Made by a program: the position numbers and the translations under genes
Shown here: one piece after another, positions 54,045 through 60,004 of the stretch
Position numbering within the stretch: position 1 is the stretch's first letter
Layout: each line of letters starts with the position of its first letter
Notes under the pieces: model-generated
What the model saw: only the letters and a program-made list of their open reading frames with translations
Databases searched by the model: none
Told to the model about the DNA's origin: nothing
DNA from: a bacterium
GTDB taxonomy: Bacteria; Hinthialibacterota; Hinthialibacteria; OLB16
Length of the DNA: 64,000 nt
Direction: 5' to 3'
NCBI GenBank assembly: GCA_022072055.1
Contig: JAJVIK010000007.1
Span: 186,001 to 250,000 of the forward strand

Positions 54045-54530
54045 CTATTCTCCGACCATTCGCAGCAACCTCTCGACAAAATCATGGTCGAGCCAAAGCC
54101 CTCCTTGATGTAATTGTTCCAGCAGCGGTCTGGCCGCAGGGATCAGTCCTTCCTGTTTTGCAAGAAGGACAATCCCAACAGTCCCTCTGAACGGTATCCC
54201 AAGCAACTTCGCGTGTCGTCGCGCAATCCCATCATCGATAACAATCTCGCTTCCCGGGTGCGTGAGGCCGAACGAAAGGACTTCAGTCTCCCCTACCCCC
54301 AAGTCCAGTTTGACAACTCGAGGATCTAAGTCCTCCATATCCACCAAATACCCCGTTGCTTCTTCTTGAAGCCATCGGCACGCGGGATCGTTTTCCGCTC
54401 CCCTTAGCACCTCTCGGTTAACCGCTTGGGGAATGATGATCTCCGAGGAGAGTGTCGTGAGGAGCCTGACTTGTCCGATTCTTGCCAGGGAAATGATCGG
54501 CGAGGAATTCACCACCCACAGTCTATCCAC
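54045..54530 (-). CDS. DUF3368 PIN-like toxin
   Basis: 161 residues. Starts MDRLWVVNSSPIISLARIGQ, the N-terminal Asp-containing strand of PIN-like folds (VVNSSPII in place of VVDTS), then DLGVGETEVLSFG with an acidic Glu and IVIDDGIARRHAKLLGIPFRGTVG with the Asp-Asp pair. DUF3368 proteins pair with UPF0175 antitoxins in type II toxin-antitoxin systems. The gene overlaps the antitoxin by 8 bases, which is the usual order. The module looks complete, and is one of few intact in this accessory zone. Confidence 0.87.
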   Translation of the reverse strand: MDRLWVVNSSPIISLARIGQVRLLTTLSSEIIIPQAVNREVLRGAENDPACRWLQEEATGYLVDMEDLDPRVVKLDLGVGETEVLSFGLTHPGSEIVIDDGIARRHAKLLGIPFRGTVGIVLLAKQEGLIPAARPLLEQLHQGGLWLDHDFVERLLRMVGE

Positions 54531-54771
54531 GCGCTAGTTCCTCCGCGATCTCCTCCACTGTGGATTGGAACGGGGAGACCCTCATCCTGGAGCATGCCTC
54601 CATGAATCCTTGACGGGTCAGGCCGGCGATTTCCGCTCCCTTGGATTGAGATACCAAGCCCAGTTCATACCACTTGACCGCGGCGGCTGCTCGCATCTCG
54701 CGCGCCAATTCCTCAGGTCTCTGGTTCAATCCTATTACCGATACATCCGGCAAATCCAAAACAACTTGCAC
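54523..54771 (-). CDS. UPF0175 antitoxin
   Basis: 82 residues. The family pattern is clear: REELAREMRAAAAVKWYELG (here EELAREMRAAAAVKWYELGLVSQSKGAEIAGLTRQGFME) with the C-terminal helix EEIAEELARG. UPF0175 proteins are predicted DNA-binding antitoxins that repress their own operon and bind the PIN-like toxin encoded next. The start ATG at 54771 follows the M56 gene's stop by 22 bases on the same strand. Confidence 0.87.
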   Translation of the reverse strand: MQVVLDLPDVSVIGLNQRPEELAREMRAAAAVKWYELGLVSQSKGAEIAGLTRQGFMEACSRMRVSPFQSTVEEIAEELARG

Positions 54772-54792: not shown

Positions 54793-57700
54793 TCATCTTA
54801 CCACTGGGCCACCCACGCCCGCAGCTTGGATCGTTTCCGCGATCCTAGCGGCTTCGTCGAGGCTGAAGTTGCCCTCAATGATGGCTCTGCCGCCAGTGAT
54901 CTTGCCCCGGATGACCGGCGCGGAGAGGACCTTTCCGTCAAACACAATCGCGACACTACGCCCAATGTGGCCCTCGGTGATCTCCCCGAATCGCTTAGCG
55001 GCTTCTTTCTTAAAGTCCAGGAACACTGCGTTCGAAGCGGTTTGGTCCAGACGTTGAACTCCGACAGACTCCACATCCGCTTCGCTGACAAGGACCTCCT
55101 TCAGGAGTGGAAGGGTGTCGCCTCCGCCCGGTTTCGGTTCGCGAAGAGCGACTTGTTCGGCCTCTTCAACCTGATCCTGTTCGGCCACCAGGCGGAACTG
55201 AAGGATCGGTTCACCCCGCGCTCCGGCCATTGCATCCCGCCGCTTCTCATAGAGGCGCACCTTCACCTCCCCCAAATCGACGGGCTTGTCCTCCTCCCCC
55301 GGTCCTGCATCCGAGATGCGAATCCGCCGCGGCGTCGGGATAATCTCCCGGTGGGGGTTTTCCGATGATGCACCCCTCGCAATACCCGCCTGTTCAAGCA
55401 TCAGCTCATAGTCGCCGGGAGGCACATCCGGGACCTCAAAGAACCCATCGCCCTTGAGGGTCAGGACCCAGATGTTTCCGGGGATATGCCCCTCGAAACC
55501 TTGGGGGCGCGGGACCTCCCCGGAAAGATAGCGCTTCTCCAACGCCCGAAGGTCGGGGGAATCCCCTTCTTCGTTTGGAACCGCGACAAGTTTCCCGATC
55601 ACCCTGCGGCCCGAACCGCCAATCTGTATTTCCGCGGTTTCTCCTGGAACGACATCGACATAGACCCCATGCGAGTGTGTGCCCATCGCCGAGGTCATCC
55701 CTCCCGATTCCACCTCCCACATCTTGAGGATGCCGAAATGATATTTCCCCGGAGGGAGCTCCTTGACCCAAAAGGACCCATTCGCATCTGTTGTGGTGGG
55801 CTGGGTGTATGGCAATTTGGAATCCGGCCAGTAACGGGAATAGACAATTCTCCCCTTGCTCCAAGGCTTGCCATCAAACGAGGCGCGCCCATGCACCGCG
55901 CCTGTTTTCTCGCTCTTGGAACGGTCGGTTTCAGGCCGCGAGCGGCCCGAATTCCTCAGATTGGCGCTGACCAACTCGCGGACCCGGATGTCCGGATCAT
56001 CGGTGGCCATGCGCAGGATCGTGTCGCGGTTGCGTTTGAAGAACTCATCCTCGCGCGACAGGAGCGCGGAGGCGGCGGCGCCGCGATCCACGCCGGAGGG
56101 CGAGAACAGCAGCTTCTCAATCGGCTCCATGTGCGCCGTCAGCCGGGGAAGGTCGCCATAGCTTCTCCCAAGCGCGATGATCGCCTGCTGTCTCACGGTC
56201 ACCGCGTCCGGATCGTTGAGAAAGGGGACAATCGCGTCGAGGTTTCCGGCGTTGTAAGCGTCAATGATCGCCTGAACCTTTTCGTTTGCATGTTTCGGAA
56301 GGGCGGCATTTTCATTGGCCACCTCCAGGAGCGGCTTCACATACACCCAGCGGTGGGCGAAGTTGTTGGTTTCATCCAGTTCCTGAACCGCGTGTTGAGG
56401 ATCGAGCACACAGTACACCTCATATTGCCCCGGCGAGGCATTCCACTCCACCTGAATGACACGGACTTTGGGAGAGGGGGGCAGCTCGGTTCCGGGGCGC
56501 TCGATCTTTTCGCCATTCGGTCCGGTGGTGATGATGGTCGGGATGATCGTTCCCGCGGGCACGGTTTCAGTCACCTCTCCGATCAGGGTTCCTCCGACCT
56601 TAGGGTCCCCCTGGAAGAAGGCGACTCTCACCGGTTGGGTCACGCTCCCGCCGTTGATCACCTCCGCGCACAGGACCAGTTTCCACGAATCGAGGATGGG
56701 GATCATGGGCGGTTTCCAGAGCGGGTGGATGTCGGAGGTGTTGAAGCGGAAATCGGCGGTGGGGACCGAGGATGGCAGTTCTCCCGCAGCGCTCAAAACG
56801 TCATCCGCTCCAACCTCGGGGCTTCGTGCGTTGGGTTGATTAGTCCGACCCGGAGCAAGTGGGATATCGCTGAACATGACCTGCTCGAAGGACCTTTTCT
56901 GAACTTCAAAGTGATCAATCTGGTCCAGGAGGACAGCGAAGACAGCCGTGGTGTGGATCATGTTTCCAGCGGACTGGTTGTCGGCCCGTATGGTTTGCAG
57001 AGAATGCCCTTCCTTGTCGACCGCTATAACTCGACTGTCTTCATGTAGCAAGTTGTGTGTGAGAGTCAACACAACTTGCGAACCGGTCTCGATCGGCGGT
57101 GAGAAAGCGAAAACGCCCGCTTCCCCGCTGAATGAGTAGGACCCCCAGCGGCCCGTGGCCTGATTGAATTCGACCGCCGCGCGCCAGGCTCCGGCGGCGA
57201 TCTCCACTTGCAGCCCGCAAGATTGGAGGTCCTTTGGTAAGGTTGCGCCGATTGCGCGGGTGTGAGGTGAGGACGCTCCATCGACGTCGCTCCTCCCGTC
57301 CACCGAAGAGCCAAAGGGGATGGTTTGAAGACGGGAACTCACAAAATCATCAGGCACATTTCTCAATCGAACCGCAAACTCATAGGCCCGCTCGTGATTA
57401 TCGGGAGTAATGATTCCACCGAGGTCCGAATACGGAGCTTCTATCAGAGGTATTCCATCGGGTCCCCACCAGGAGCCGGGCTTGGATGGGTGCGTCGAGA
57501 CTCCGATCAGCTCCACTAGAATGCCGTTATTCAGGTCAGCAACCCAATTTCTAGCTTCGGCTCGGCGATTCGTTGCAAAGATGTCGGGTTCCTGCCTCCC
57601 CCCCGGCAGGGCCACCGCCGCGAGCAGCGCGAGCAGGAGGAGCGTGACCAGCGACATCTTCGCGCGGCGGGCCACTTTCTCATCCAAAGCCCGCGTGATC

Positions 57701-58680
57701 CGGCCCTTCGTGTGCCGGAAGGAATCAGCCAGCCCGATCGCCTGAAGGGTCGCCTCGCCCAACCGCGCGCCACGTTCCGCGACATCCACCAGCAGCCGGG
57801 AGTATTTTCCGCCCGAACCGATGTTGAGGGACAGGACAAGGTCATCGCAACACAGCTCACGCTCCGCCCGGATGCGACTGTTCAGCGCCCACACCAACGG
57901 ATTCCACCACAACCAAACCTGCGACGCGATCTGAAACCAATTGCAGATCGGATCGCGCCGTTTGACATGCGCGAACTCGTGCGCGAGAAGCAGCCGCTGT
58001 TCCTCCGCGCTTGTTCGTTCCACCCACGCCGGAAGGAGGATGAAGGGACGCAGGAACCCGCCCACGCGCGGAGTTTCGATTTCGCTGGAAAAGAAAAGCC
58101 TCGGAGCTCGGTGAAGTAACCCGAACTCCGAGGCCAGGCTCTCCTTGCGTAAGGAGAGCACCCCTACTTGAGACTCGTCCGAACGCGCGACTAGCGCGCG
58201 TAGTTTGCATAAACGATGCGTAATAAGCGCGATGAACAGCGCCACTCCAAGAATGTGGGCGAAAAACATCCACGCCACTGGAGAGAACTCTTCAACCGCG
58301 ATCTTGCCCGGGGCGGTGCGAGCATTTATCGCATCGACATTCGATTCCAGCTCGGTATCGCTTTGGGGAACGACGCCATAGCTCTCGAATGCCACAAAAC
58401 TCTCACGAACCGAGTCGATCTTAAGCGGTTTAAGGCCGGTTGAGAAGAAGGAAAATGCGGAGTCATAGAAATTTATCCCAGAAATACCTAATGGTGGGAG
58501 GGTGAATTTGATGAGTGCGAGCAGGAGCAGGCCATAGCGGAGCTGTGGGGTGGCTCGCCGCCACAGCGCCAAGACTCCTGATAGCACGGTGAGAAGAAGC
58601 AACCCCTGCCAGGTGGCGTGAAGGCTCCAAGACCACCACACCGAAGCGGCTTGGTTGAAGGACTCGATCCAGGAGTTCAT
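54793..58680 (-). CDS. Giant BlaR1/MecR1-like M56 metallopeptidase fused to CARDB, HEAT and SecD-like domains
   Basis: 1295 residues. The first ~340 residues are an M56/BlaR1 module: four membrane helices and HEFAH at 234-238 (HExxH zinc site) followed by R-E-L-C-C-D-D-L. A membrane helix at about 350 (LVTLLLLALLAAVAL) leads to an outer part. It holds a beta-rich region, a CARDB-like domain (VRVAFFQGDPKVGGTLIGEV, LDETNNFAHRWVYV), HEAT-like repeats (VTVRQQAIIALGRSYGDL), a carboxypeptidase-regulatory/BNR-type beta domain (GSFWVKELPPGKYHFGI), and a C-terminal SecD-head-like segment (VGVQRLDQTASNAVFLDF, GKVLSAPVIRGKITGGRAIIEGNF). The M56 protease is expected to cleave the BlaI repressor. The SecD-like part is by pattern. 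Confidence 0.83.
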   Translation of the reverse strand: MNSWIESFNQAASVWWSWSLHATWQGLLLLTVLSGVLALWRRATPQLRYGLLLLALIKFTLPPLGISGINFYDSAFSFFSTGLKPLKIDSVRESFVAFESYGVVPQSDTELESNVDAINARTAPGKIAVEEFSPVAWMFFAHILGVALFIALITHRLCKLRALVARSDESQVGVLSLRKESLASEFGLLHRAPRLFFSSEIETPRVGGFLRPFILLPAWVERTSAEEQRLLLAHEFAHVKRRDPICNWFQIASQVWLWWNPLVWALNSRIRAERELCCDDLVLSLNIGSGGKYSRLLVDVAERGARLGEATLQAIGLADSFRHTKGRITRALDEKVARRAKMSLVTLLLLALLAAVALPGGRQEPDIFATNRRAEARNWVADLNNGILVELIGVSTHPSKPGSWWGPDGIPLIEAPYSDLGGIITPDNHERAYEFAVRLRNVPDDFVSSRLQTIPFGSSVDGRSDVDGASSPHTRAIGATLPKDLQSCGLQVEIAAGAWRAAVEFNQATGRWGSYSFSGEAGVFAFSPPIETGSQVVLTLTHNLLHEDSRVIAVDKEGHSLQTIRADNQSAGNMIHTTAVFAVLLDQIDHFEVQKRSFEQVMFSDIPLAPGRTNQPNARSPEVGADDVLSAAGELPSSVPTADFRFNTSDIHPLWKPPMIPILDSWKLVLCAEVINGGSVTQPVRVAFFQGDPKVGGTLIGEVTETVPAGTIIPTIITTGPNGEKIERPGTELPPSPKVRVIQVEWNASPGQYEVYCVLDPQHAVQELDETNNFAHRWVYVKPLLEVANENAALPKHANEKVQAIIDAYNAGNLDAIVPFLNDPDAVTVRQQAIIALGRSYGDLPRLTAHMEPIEKLLFSPSGVDRGAAASALLSREDEFFKRNRDTILRMATDDPDIRVRELVSANLRNSGRSRPETDRSKSEKTGAVHGRASFDGKPWSKGRIVYSRYWPDSKLPYTQPTTTDANGSFWVKELPPGKYHFGILKMWEVESGGMTSAMGTHSHGVYVDVVPGETAEIQIGGSGRRVIGKLVAVPNEEGDSPDLRALEKRYLSGEVPRPQGFEGHIPGNIWVLTLKGDGFFEVPDVPPGDYELMLEQAGIARGASSENPHREIIPTPRRIRISDAGPGEEDKPVDLGEVKVRLYEKRRDAMAGARGEPILQFRLVAEQDQVEEAEQVALREPKPGGGDTLPLLKEVLVSEADVESVGVQRLDQTASNAVFLDFKKEAAKRFGEITEGHIGRSVAIVFDGKVLSAPVIRGKITGGRAIIEGNFSLDEAARIAETIQAAGVGGPVVR

Positions 58681-59069
58681 CGTCCCTGCCCTCCCCCGTG
58701 ACCGTGGTCATCGAGTAGACGGCGGAGCTCTTCGACCTGCTCCGGTTCCAGGCGTTTCTCCTCCAAGAGGCAGGACATGAGCGGAAGCGGGTCGCCCCCA
58801 AAAACTCCTTCAAGAAGGTCCTTCAGGAGCCTGCGTGCCAGCGACCGCGCTCGTGGAGTTGGGCGGTACACAAACGCCTTCGAGCCATTGCGGAGGAAGT
58901 GTTCCACATACCCTTTGGCCTCGAGGCGCCGGATAAAAGTGACCACCGTGCCGGGGGCCCAGTTCCTGGACTCGGCGCAGCGTTGGAAGATTTCGCCTGA
59001 GGTGCCTTCGCCCAGGTCAATGAGCGCCTGGAGGACCTCTCTTTCAGCATCGGACACCTTGCGACTCAT
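58677..59069 (-). CDS. BlaI/MecI/CopY-type transcriptional repressor
   Basis: 130 residues from the ATG at 59069, which follows GAGGAGG at 7 bases. VSDAEREVLQALIDLGEGTSGEIFQR begins the winged helix; WAPGTVVTFIRRLEAKGYVEHF is the recognition helix and wing. The C-terminal dimerisation helices follow. The stop overlaps the M56 gene start by 4 bases. BlaI repressors are inactivated by proteolysis through the BlaR1-type partner. The operator lies over its promoter, supporting autoregulation. Confidence 0.93.
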   Translation of the reverse strand: MSRKVSDAEREVLQALIDLGEGTSGEIFQRCAESRNWAPGTVVTFIRRLEAKGYVEHFLRNGSKAFVYRPTPRARSLARRLLKDLLEGVFGGDPLPLMSCLLEEKRLEPEQVEELRRLLDDHGHGGGQGR

Positions 59070-59093
59070 ACCCGGGCCTCCTCTCGTCTGGAT

Positions 59094-59133
59094 TGTCAAA
59101 TACATTTGTACATGACATTCGGAAATCTGTCAA
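59094..59133 (-). promoter_or_regulatory. BlaI promoter with overlapping TACA/TGTA operator
   Basis: On the minus strand TTGACA (59133-59128) and TACAAA (59110-59105) are 17 bases apart. A palindrome TGTCA-AA-TACATTTGTA-CA-TGACA (59094-59117, plus strand) covers the -10. Its centre TACA-TT-TGTA matches the TACA/TGTA half-sites of BlaI/MecI operators, so repression would block RNA polymerase directly. Confidence 0.75.
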
Positions 59134-59191: not shown

Positions 59192-59283
59192 GGAGAGGTG
59201 ACCGAGCTGGCCGAAGGTGCACGACTGGAAATCGTGTGCGCTCCAAAAGGGCGCCGTGGGTTCGAATCCCACCCTCTCCGCCA
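59192..59283 (+). tRNA. tRNA-Ser(GGA), CCA encoded
   Basis: Acceptor GGAGAGG pairs with CCTCTCC; the anticodon arm CACGA-CTGGAAA-TCGTG gives anticodon GGA (codon UCC). A long variable arm (GCGCTCCAAAAGGGCGC region) and T arm GTGGG-TTCGAAT-CCCAC follow. G discriminator and CCA are encoded (59280-59283). It is divergent from blaI. Confidence 0.97.
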
Positions 59284-59356
59284 TCCTTCCACGATTCCCT
59301 TTAATCGGAGGGACCTTGACGTTCCAGTTTTTCCGTGGGCGCCTGCGGACAATTGT

Positions 59357-59382
59357 GTCGGCATGTTTCAATATATGCCGAC
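59357..59382. promoter_or_regulatory. Inverted repeat ahead of abiEi
   Basis: GTCGGCAT (59357-59364) and ATGCCGAC (59375-59382) are perfect 8-bp arms, 10 bases apart, just upstream of the abiEi ATG. AbiEi-type antitoxins repress their own operon through inverted repeats in the promoter, so this is a candidate operator. Confidence 0.6.
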
Positions 59383-59401
59383 GCTTCAGGACAGGCCCCA
59401 A

Positions 59402-60004
59402 ATGGAATCCAGGGTGATCGATAGAGTGGTCGGGATTGCGGCGAAGAAGGGGATTCTTCGTCCCCTCGATCTTGACGATTTCAACATCCCGCGCAGGTAT
59501 GTCCAGCGTCTTTGGGAAAGAGGGATCCTTCAAAGGGTCGGGCGGGGTCTGTATGTACTGAAGGGCGCCAAGCCCAGTGAACACAGATCCCTGGCCGAGG
59601 TCGCCAGGCGAGTCCCCCATGGCGTTGTCTGCCTTTTTTCGGCGCTCCGATTCCACGGGTTGACAAGCCGGCACCCATTCGAGGTGTGGTTGGCGATCGA
59701 CAGAAAAGCTCGTCGGCCAAGAGACCGGCAGCTCTCCATTCGTTTGGTTCGTTTCTCGGGAGAGGCGCTCTCGTTCGGAGTCGAAAACCACCGGCTTGAG
59801 GGTGTCCGAGTCCAGGTCTTTTCCCCCGCCAAGACCGTGGCTGACTGTTTCAAGTATCGAAACAAGATTGGGCTGGATGTGGGGTTGGAGGCATTGAAAG
59901 ACAGTCTTCGACAGAGGAAAGCCACGCCCGATGACCTTCTGAAAGCCGCACGGATTTGTCGCGTCGAGCGGGTGATCAAACCGTATTTGGAGGCGCTGCT
60001 TTGA
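59402..60004 (+). CDS. abiEi: AbiEi-type antitoxin/transcriptional regulator
   Basis: 200 residues from the ATG at 59402. The N-terminal winged helix reads RVVGIAAKKGILRPLDLDDFNIPRRYVQRLWERGILQRVGRGLYVL; the C-terminal domain has VVCLFSALRFHGLTSRHPFEVWLAI and VFSPAKTVADCFKYRNKIGLDVGLEALKD. This is the AbiEi family, which represses its promoter and neutralises the AbiEii nucleotidyltransferase toxin by a type IV mechanism. The gene is intact while the adjacent toxin gene is broken. Confidence 0.88.
   Translation: MESRVIDRVVGIAAKKGILRPLDLDDFNIPRRYVQRLWERGILQRVGRGLYVLKGAKPSEHRSLAEVARRVPHGVVCLFSALRFHGLTSRHPFEVWLAIDRKARRPRDRQLSIRLVRFSGEALSFGVENHRLEGVRVQVFSPAKTVADCFKYRNKIGLDVGLEALKDSLRQRKATPDDLLKAARICRVERVIKPYLEALL

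Follow-up and report, generated by a model that had tools for sequence, protein, structure and literature searches.

Gene arrangement at the locus

The window (the whole analysed stretch of 64,000 nucleotides) contained, on its reverse strand, a two-gene unit in which a gene for a BlaI-type repressor was followed by that of an M56 zinc protease fused to a long mosaic tail (Table 1). The blaI stop and the M56 start share 4 bp (ATGA). The fusion gene is a stop-free single frame inside a 646-kb contig, and its product agreed exactly with an earlier note on this DNA in length (1295 residues), frame, strand and position of the HEFAH motif. Directly downstream of the M56 gene, at 54045–54771 on the reverse strand, a DUF3368 (PIN-like) gene and a UPF0175 gene share 8 bp and are likely to form a toxin-antitoxin pair, and an AbiEi-type antitoxin/regulator gene is located at 59198–60004 on the forward strand, divergent from blaI, with no adjacent toxin partner evident. 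No Sec, chaperone or protease gene was linked to the locus.

Table 1. Features of the blaI-M56 locus, with positions in the window
Feature	Position	Strand	Basis
-35-like TTGACA, 17 bp from TACAAA	59128..59133	-	sequence
Operator dyad TGTCAAATACATTTGTACATGACA, 24 bp, over -10 box TACAAA (59105-59110)	59094..59117	.	pattern counts
Shine-Dalgarno-like AGAGGAGG for blaI	59077..59084	-	sequence
BlaI/MecI/CopY-type repressor, 130 aa from MSRKVSD	58677..59069	-	PF03965 E 2.3e-22
M56 fusion protein, 1295 aa	54793..58680	-	ORF + Pfam
M56 (BlaR1) protease core, residues 114-329	57694..58341	-	PF05569 E 1.5e-29
HEFAH zinc motif, residues 234-238	57967..57981	-	sequence
ELCCD, ExxxD gluzincin motif at +41, residues 275-279	57844..57858	-	sequence
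Last transmembrane helix, residues 342-360	57601..57657	-	hydropathy
X1, all-beta, no annotation, residues 379-610	56851..57546	-	no Pfam match; model
CARDB-like domain (weak), residues about 655-780	56341..56718	-	PF07705 E 0.0041, below cut-off
HEAT-like repeats, residues about 800-875	56056..56283	-	PF13513 E 2.7e-6, PF13646 E 3.3e-6
Carboxypeptidase-regulatory-like domain, residues about 928-1010	55651..55899	-	PF13620
SecD P1 head subdomain, residues about 1160-1291	54808..55203	-	PF22599 + SecDF 3aqo fold match

The protease core matched PF05569 far above the threshold (103.5 bits for the 1295-aa protein, cut-off 31), and its closest solved structure in a PDB sequence search was BlaR1 (E 0.011). 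The 41-residue spacing from HExxH to ExxxD was identical in all ten M56 proteins compared and is that of H201 and E242 in Staphylococcus aureus BlaR1 (PMC9834060). Of the four membrane helices expected of M56 peptidases, with the protease between the third and the fourth, hydropathy clearly indicated three, at residues 51–69, 135–153 and 342–360, with the first one (about 19–40) below the threshold. The BlaR1-BlaI plan proposed previously is supported by PF05569, PF03965, the HEFAH/ELCCD spacing and the 4-bp gene overlap. The similarity to the BlaR1-BlaI and MecR1-MecI systems of Staphylococcus and Bacillus comprised the M56 zinc protease, in which ExxxD stands at +41 from HExxH, predicted membrane helices, the outer C-terminal tail, the adjoining BlaI-type repressor and a TACA/TGTA dyad over the promoter. 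Unlike BlaR1 and MecR1, the fusion protein lacks a penicillin-binding sensor, as already claimed from the sequence (no transpeptidase-type domain was detected in it with Pfam), and carries instead a mosaic tail of about 935 residues with X1 and a SecD head; neither a beta-lactamase nor a PBP gene was linked to the locus. The blaR1_generic equivalog model scored 80.3 bits against a cut-off of 400, and the identity of a BlaR1 beta-lactam sensor was rejected on the absence of the penicillin-binding domain. The system is a BlaR1-BlaI variant, which is neither a beta-lactam sensor nor SecD.

The CARDB and HEAT assignments in the tail, both made in the earlier note, are weak, if plausible. With the segments scanned alone, HEAT repeats reached the cut-off (PF13513, 28.2 bits against 27, falling below it in the whole-protein scan) and this part of the claim stood, while the CARDB part fell short of the threshold (PF07705, 17.7 bits against 22.7, E 0.004). 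The fusion protein contains PGQYEVYCVLDPQHAVQELDETNN, which has an appearance common among CARDB domains. Two further parts had been overlooked, namely X1 and the carboxypeptidase-regulatory-like module, the latter matching PF13620 with E 2.1e-7 in the whole protein, slightly under the cut-off.

The repressor and its operator

The repressor matched PF03965 with 79.9 bits against a cut-off of 22.6, and its start is most likely at 59069 rather than at the mechanical ORF end at 59105, judging from the sequence. The candidate operator core TACATTTGTA at 59101–59110 was the single occurrence of TACANNTGTA in the 64-kb window, against 0.03 expected, and the extended dyad pattern was likewise found there once, against 0.01 expected. 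The location of TACA/TGTA sites over the promoter had been given correctly, but not their plural, as there is one TACANNTGTA dyad only. The same core is present in the published operators of BlaI, MecI and CopY (PMC7253601). Scored simply as a palindrome, the blaI promoter of the window on its own was not significant, its value being reached by 21 of 200 shuffles, so that the case for an operator rests on the specific TACANNTGTA core. A sigma-70 consensus scan did not call the blaI promoter, because TACAAA fits TATAAT poorly.

A genome-wide search with the extended pattern produced no perfect copy besides the site at the blaI promoter; with up to three mismatches allowed the counts equalled those of a reversed-pattern control, and the next-best match (two mismatches, C1:583994) lay among long overlapping frames. 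A wider regulon recognisable by its operators was rejected, the self site being the sole perfect match. In most other BlaI-M56 pairs TTGACA was followed by an own dyad of different sequence, as would be expected for insulated paralogous pairs. This arrangement was observed at most of the loci L036, L037, L038, L121, L123, L124 and L126, with none found for L038.

The copper repressors CopY and CopR belong to the same repressor superfamily and have the TACANNTGTA operator core (PMC7253601). Unlike them, the present BlaI has no CXC metal motif and is partnered by a protease, not by a copper pump, and the flanks of its dyad (ATG...TTT) do not fit the CopY operator RNYKACANNTGTMRNY (PMC7253601). 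A CopY identity was rejected on the lack of CXC in the 130-aa sequence; the CopY model TIGR02698 scored 44 bits against a cut-off of 122.

The C-terminal SecD P1 head

The earlier note had staked its reading on a SecD-like C-terminus, and SecD was matched there in three ways. The Pfam family PF22599 (SecDF_P1_head) was found at residues 1187–1286 with E 4e-22 and 78.7 bits against a cut-off of 27; by sequence the closest PDB entry to the tail was 3aqo, which holds P1 of Thermus SecDF (E 4.6e-15); and a head model built from ten detached heads (predicted structure, mean pLDDT 91.9) had SecDF or SecD as all nine best PDB matches in Foldseek (E 1e-9 to 2e-4), followed by noise, with E 1.3e-9 and TM 0.75 against 3aqo. 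The core motif AIVxDGxVxSAP...I.G of the head was conserved among very divergent proteins. The C-terminus of the fusion protein is a genuine SecD P1 head.

The likeness to SecD/SecDF (3aqo, 3aqp, 5yhf) covers the family PF22599 and the P1-head fold. Unlike these proteins, the fusion holds the head only, joined to a protease, without the base domain or the membrane part. The full-SecD model TIGR01129 reached 63.6 bits against a cut-off of 244.4 and covered only its positions 118–224 of 397, and the identity of a SecD/SecDF translocase was discarded, since the P1 base and the RND-type membrane part are missing; the genome's own SecD is encoded on another contig. Force generation of the SecD type is impossible for a head without the SecD base domain and membrane helices. 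The SecD P1 head has been reported to bind unfolded preprotein (PMC3643904; PMC6028853), and with the base and the membrane helices missing, polypeptide binding by the detached head may be altered.

X1, a domain at the sensor position

X1 comprises about 230 residues right after the last helix, which is the position of the sensor in BlaR1, and has the hallmark ELxGVxxxPSxxxxWWxPDG. No Pfam family matched it, and its predicted structure was all-beta (pLDDT 74), with no confident relative in a fold search against the PDB, where weak immunoglobulin-like matches alone were obtained. It was common to M56 proteins from three phyla, some of them without the head, and was present in five of the nine M56-head proteins (that of the window plus eight), as well as in a contig-cut relative of the same family, G002. 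X1 and the SecD head co-occurred in the window, G002, G419, G387, G394 and G395.

Relatives of the fusion protein

The surveys covered 14 genomes of the window's class, 68 of a second phylum, and 245 and 195 of two more phyla. The M56-linked head homologues that the earlier note had looked to a genomic survey for were found in the second phylum, where both domains occurred in one frame, each above its Pfam cut-off, in 8/68 genomes (G290, G436 with HEAT, G424, G419, G396, G387, G394 and G395), with cut or frameshifted copies in G435 and G437. At all eight of these other loci holding M56 and head, BlaI adjoined or lay near the M56 gene: directly upstream in G290, G436, G424, G419, G396 and G387, and, in G394 and G395, at an upstream distance of about 2.4 kb. 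A chance or artefactual origin, in which misassembly or a frameshift joined a SecD fragment to an M56 gene, might be invoked for an assembly of 32 contigs from a class in which detached heads are otherwise rare; it is extremely improbable and was rejected because the M56-head combination recurs in the second phylum, and it is further opposed by the unbroken frame in a 646-kb contig and by the clustering of the head with detached heads, not with SecD heads. Recurrence in the second phylum suggests a possible sensor of exported proteins.

The G387 protein (L191:2459-5269) has M56, head plus base strand, and X1 within 937 residues and is possibly a more tractable, shorter relative; its SecD-like part, located between M56 and X1, does not stop with the head but includes the base strand of P1 (LRAGAFPAPVQIEERR). 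The proteins of L202 (G395) and L203 (G394) combine M56 with an MlaD domain, X1 and the SecD head, and one of them runs on into LRR repeats (a 2696 aa frame). In the window's class, G002 has a detached head linked to X1 on a contig that starts only beyond the presumed M56 part; G007 has a beta-helix protein with a C-terminal head. No M56-head protein was present among the loci examined in the other two phyla, with their 245 and 195 genomes, at a strict threshold of 1e-16, which diverged heads would escape; in this survey the head was found as a stand-alone lipoprotein in G610. Among the 20 matches listed for the phylum of G041, those that could be read were either ordinary SecD or an isolated P1, without M56. 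Small lipoproteins of scarcely more than a SecD P1 head were also seen at L120, L125 and L136, in two phyla. As stand-alone lipoproteins the detached heads represent a mobile extracytoplasmic module.

Other multidomain M56 proteins of the window's class and of the phyla of G290 and G286 resemble the fusion in the BlaI-M56 pair and the large modular outer tail. Their tails vary greatly, with regulatory-like, WD40, LRR, beta-helix, HEAT and TPR modules, and most are without the SecD head. L039 (G012) and L042 (G013) of the window's class encoded M56-type proteins that reach about 2000 residues through long WD40-like tails, the L042 frame running on with secretin-like repeats. No description of an M56-SecD fusion was found in the literature searched, which omitted most subscription journals.

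The variation among these tails bears on the strongest rival reading, in which the M56-BlaI relay operates with the head as a structural or partner-docking module only, and the ligand is bound elsewhere in the tail, for instance by X1 or, as a cell-wall or carbohydrate cue, by the carboxypeptidase-regulatory-like modules. The outer modules differ so much among M56 paralogues that the head could be merely one interchangeable module; moreover, X1 adjoins the last helix and is shared with head-less M56 proteins, and heads are found in proteins without a signalling part. Against this, the core motif of the head is kept across very divergent proteins, and its repeated association with X1 and M56 is beyond expectation for a passive spacer. 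We regard this reading as possible, at distinctly less than even odds.

Origin of the detached heads

The head tree included 32 heads, 11 non-SecD and 21 SecD, with G387 left out. A branch with support 94/92, just under the full-support mark, parted the two sets, and the seven M56-linked heads fell on one side with support 93/89; the domain is short and several branches are long. The head of the fusion protein grouped with the other detached heads, not with the SecD heads. The sequences point to one shared detached-head lineage as likely, with a separate recruitment in G387. This placement also concerns the idea that the M56 protein monitors the Sec machinery itself, its head competing with the native SecD head on the translocon or docking there like it, and so signalling whether translocons are free or jammed. 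The genuine homology to SecD, the SecD fold, and the base-like strand accompanying the head in G387, would agree with such a function, but the separate branch of the non-SecD heads (short of full support), the lack of linkage to sec genes and the dependence on the reach of a 900-residue tail make it quite unlikely.

Proposed mechanism

Domain identity, catalytic motifs, gene pairing, operator position and a recurrent architecture, as read from sequences and models, are those of a putative two-gene self-repressing relay of the BlaR1-BlaI type. An M56-BlaI relay is highly probable, with M56 and the SecD head both far above their Pfam cut-offs, the combination recurring in eight of 68 genomes and BlaI paired with M56. 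In the proposed scheme BlaI would repress the blaI-M56 operon from the one dyad that covers the -10 box of its own gene. BlaR1 is known to cleave BlaI directly, its M56 site facing inward and its sensor outside (PMC9834060). Beyond what hydropathy indicates, we infer a corresponding topology, with the zinc site of the membrane-embedded M56 protein in the cytosol and the tail, the roughly 935 residues that follow the last helix, on the outer side. There it would form a sensor tower, with X1 near the membrane, CARDB-like, HEAT-like and regulatory-like spacers, and the SecD P1 head at the tip. The head would catch either a secreted partner or a polypeptide that is unfolded or only partly exported; the tower would shift its position, and the membrane-proximal X1 would transmit this shift, freeing the M56 site. 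M56 would then cut BlaI, derepressing the operon and any other target of the putative regulon.

This combination of a BlaR1-type relay, a mosaic sensor and a head binding exported polypeptide is the best explanation overall, with a probability of about 0.5; the absence of Sec-linked genes at the locus and of a second good operator in the genome counts against it. That an exported polypeptide is the actual signal of the relay is less likely than not. The head might sense a translocation or substrate state, as the earlier note had proposed, yet heads also occur without M56 (in a lipoprotein and terminally in a beta-helix protein), so that the head may serve generally to bind polypeptides or partners rather than to gauge translocation. 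A further-reaching version is rather unlikely: a one-component secretion-stress sensor, in which a stalled or unfolded exported polypeptide outside would directly trigger repressor cleavage inside via the SecD-derived head, the sensing part having been recruited more than once (as the detached head and, in G387, as the longer P1-like stretch).

Relays of the BlaR1 type are known chiefly for sensing antibiotics. If the proposed reading is true, the M56-SecD-head proteins would represent the same membrane protease reading a different signal, one that is internal and reflects the state of exported proteins, in a two-gene M56-BlaI relay of poorly studied phyla. X1, a domain at the sensor position without annotation, is a candidate for registration as a new family, and the SecD P1 head, which occurs here as a module free of the translocase, may offer a soluble route to its binding partners.
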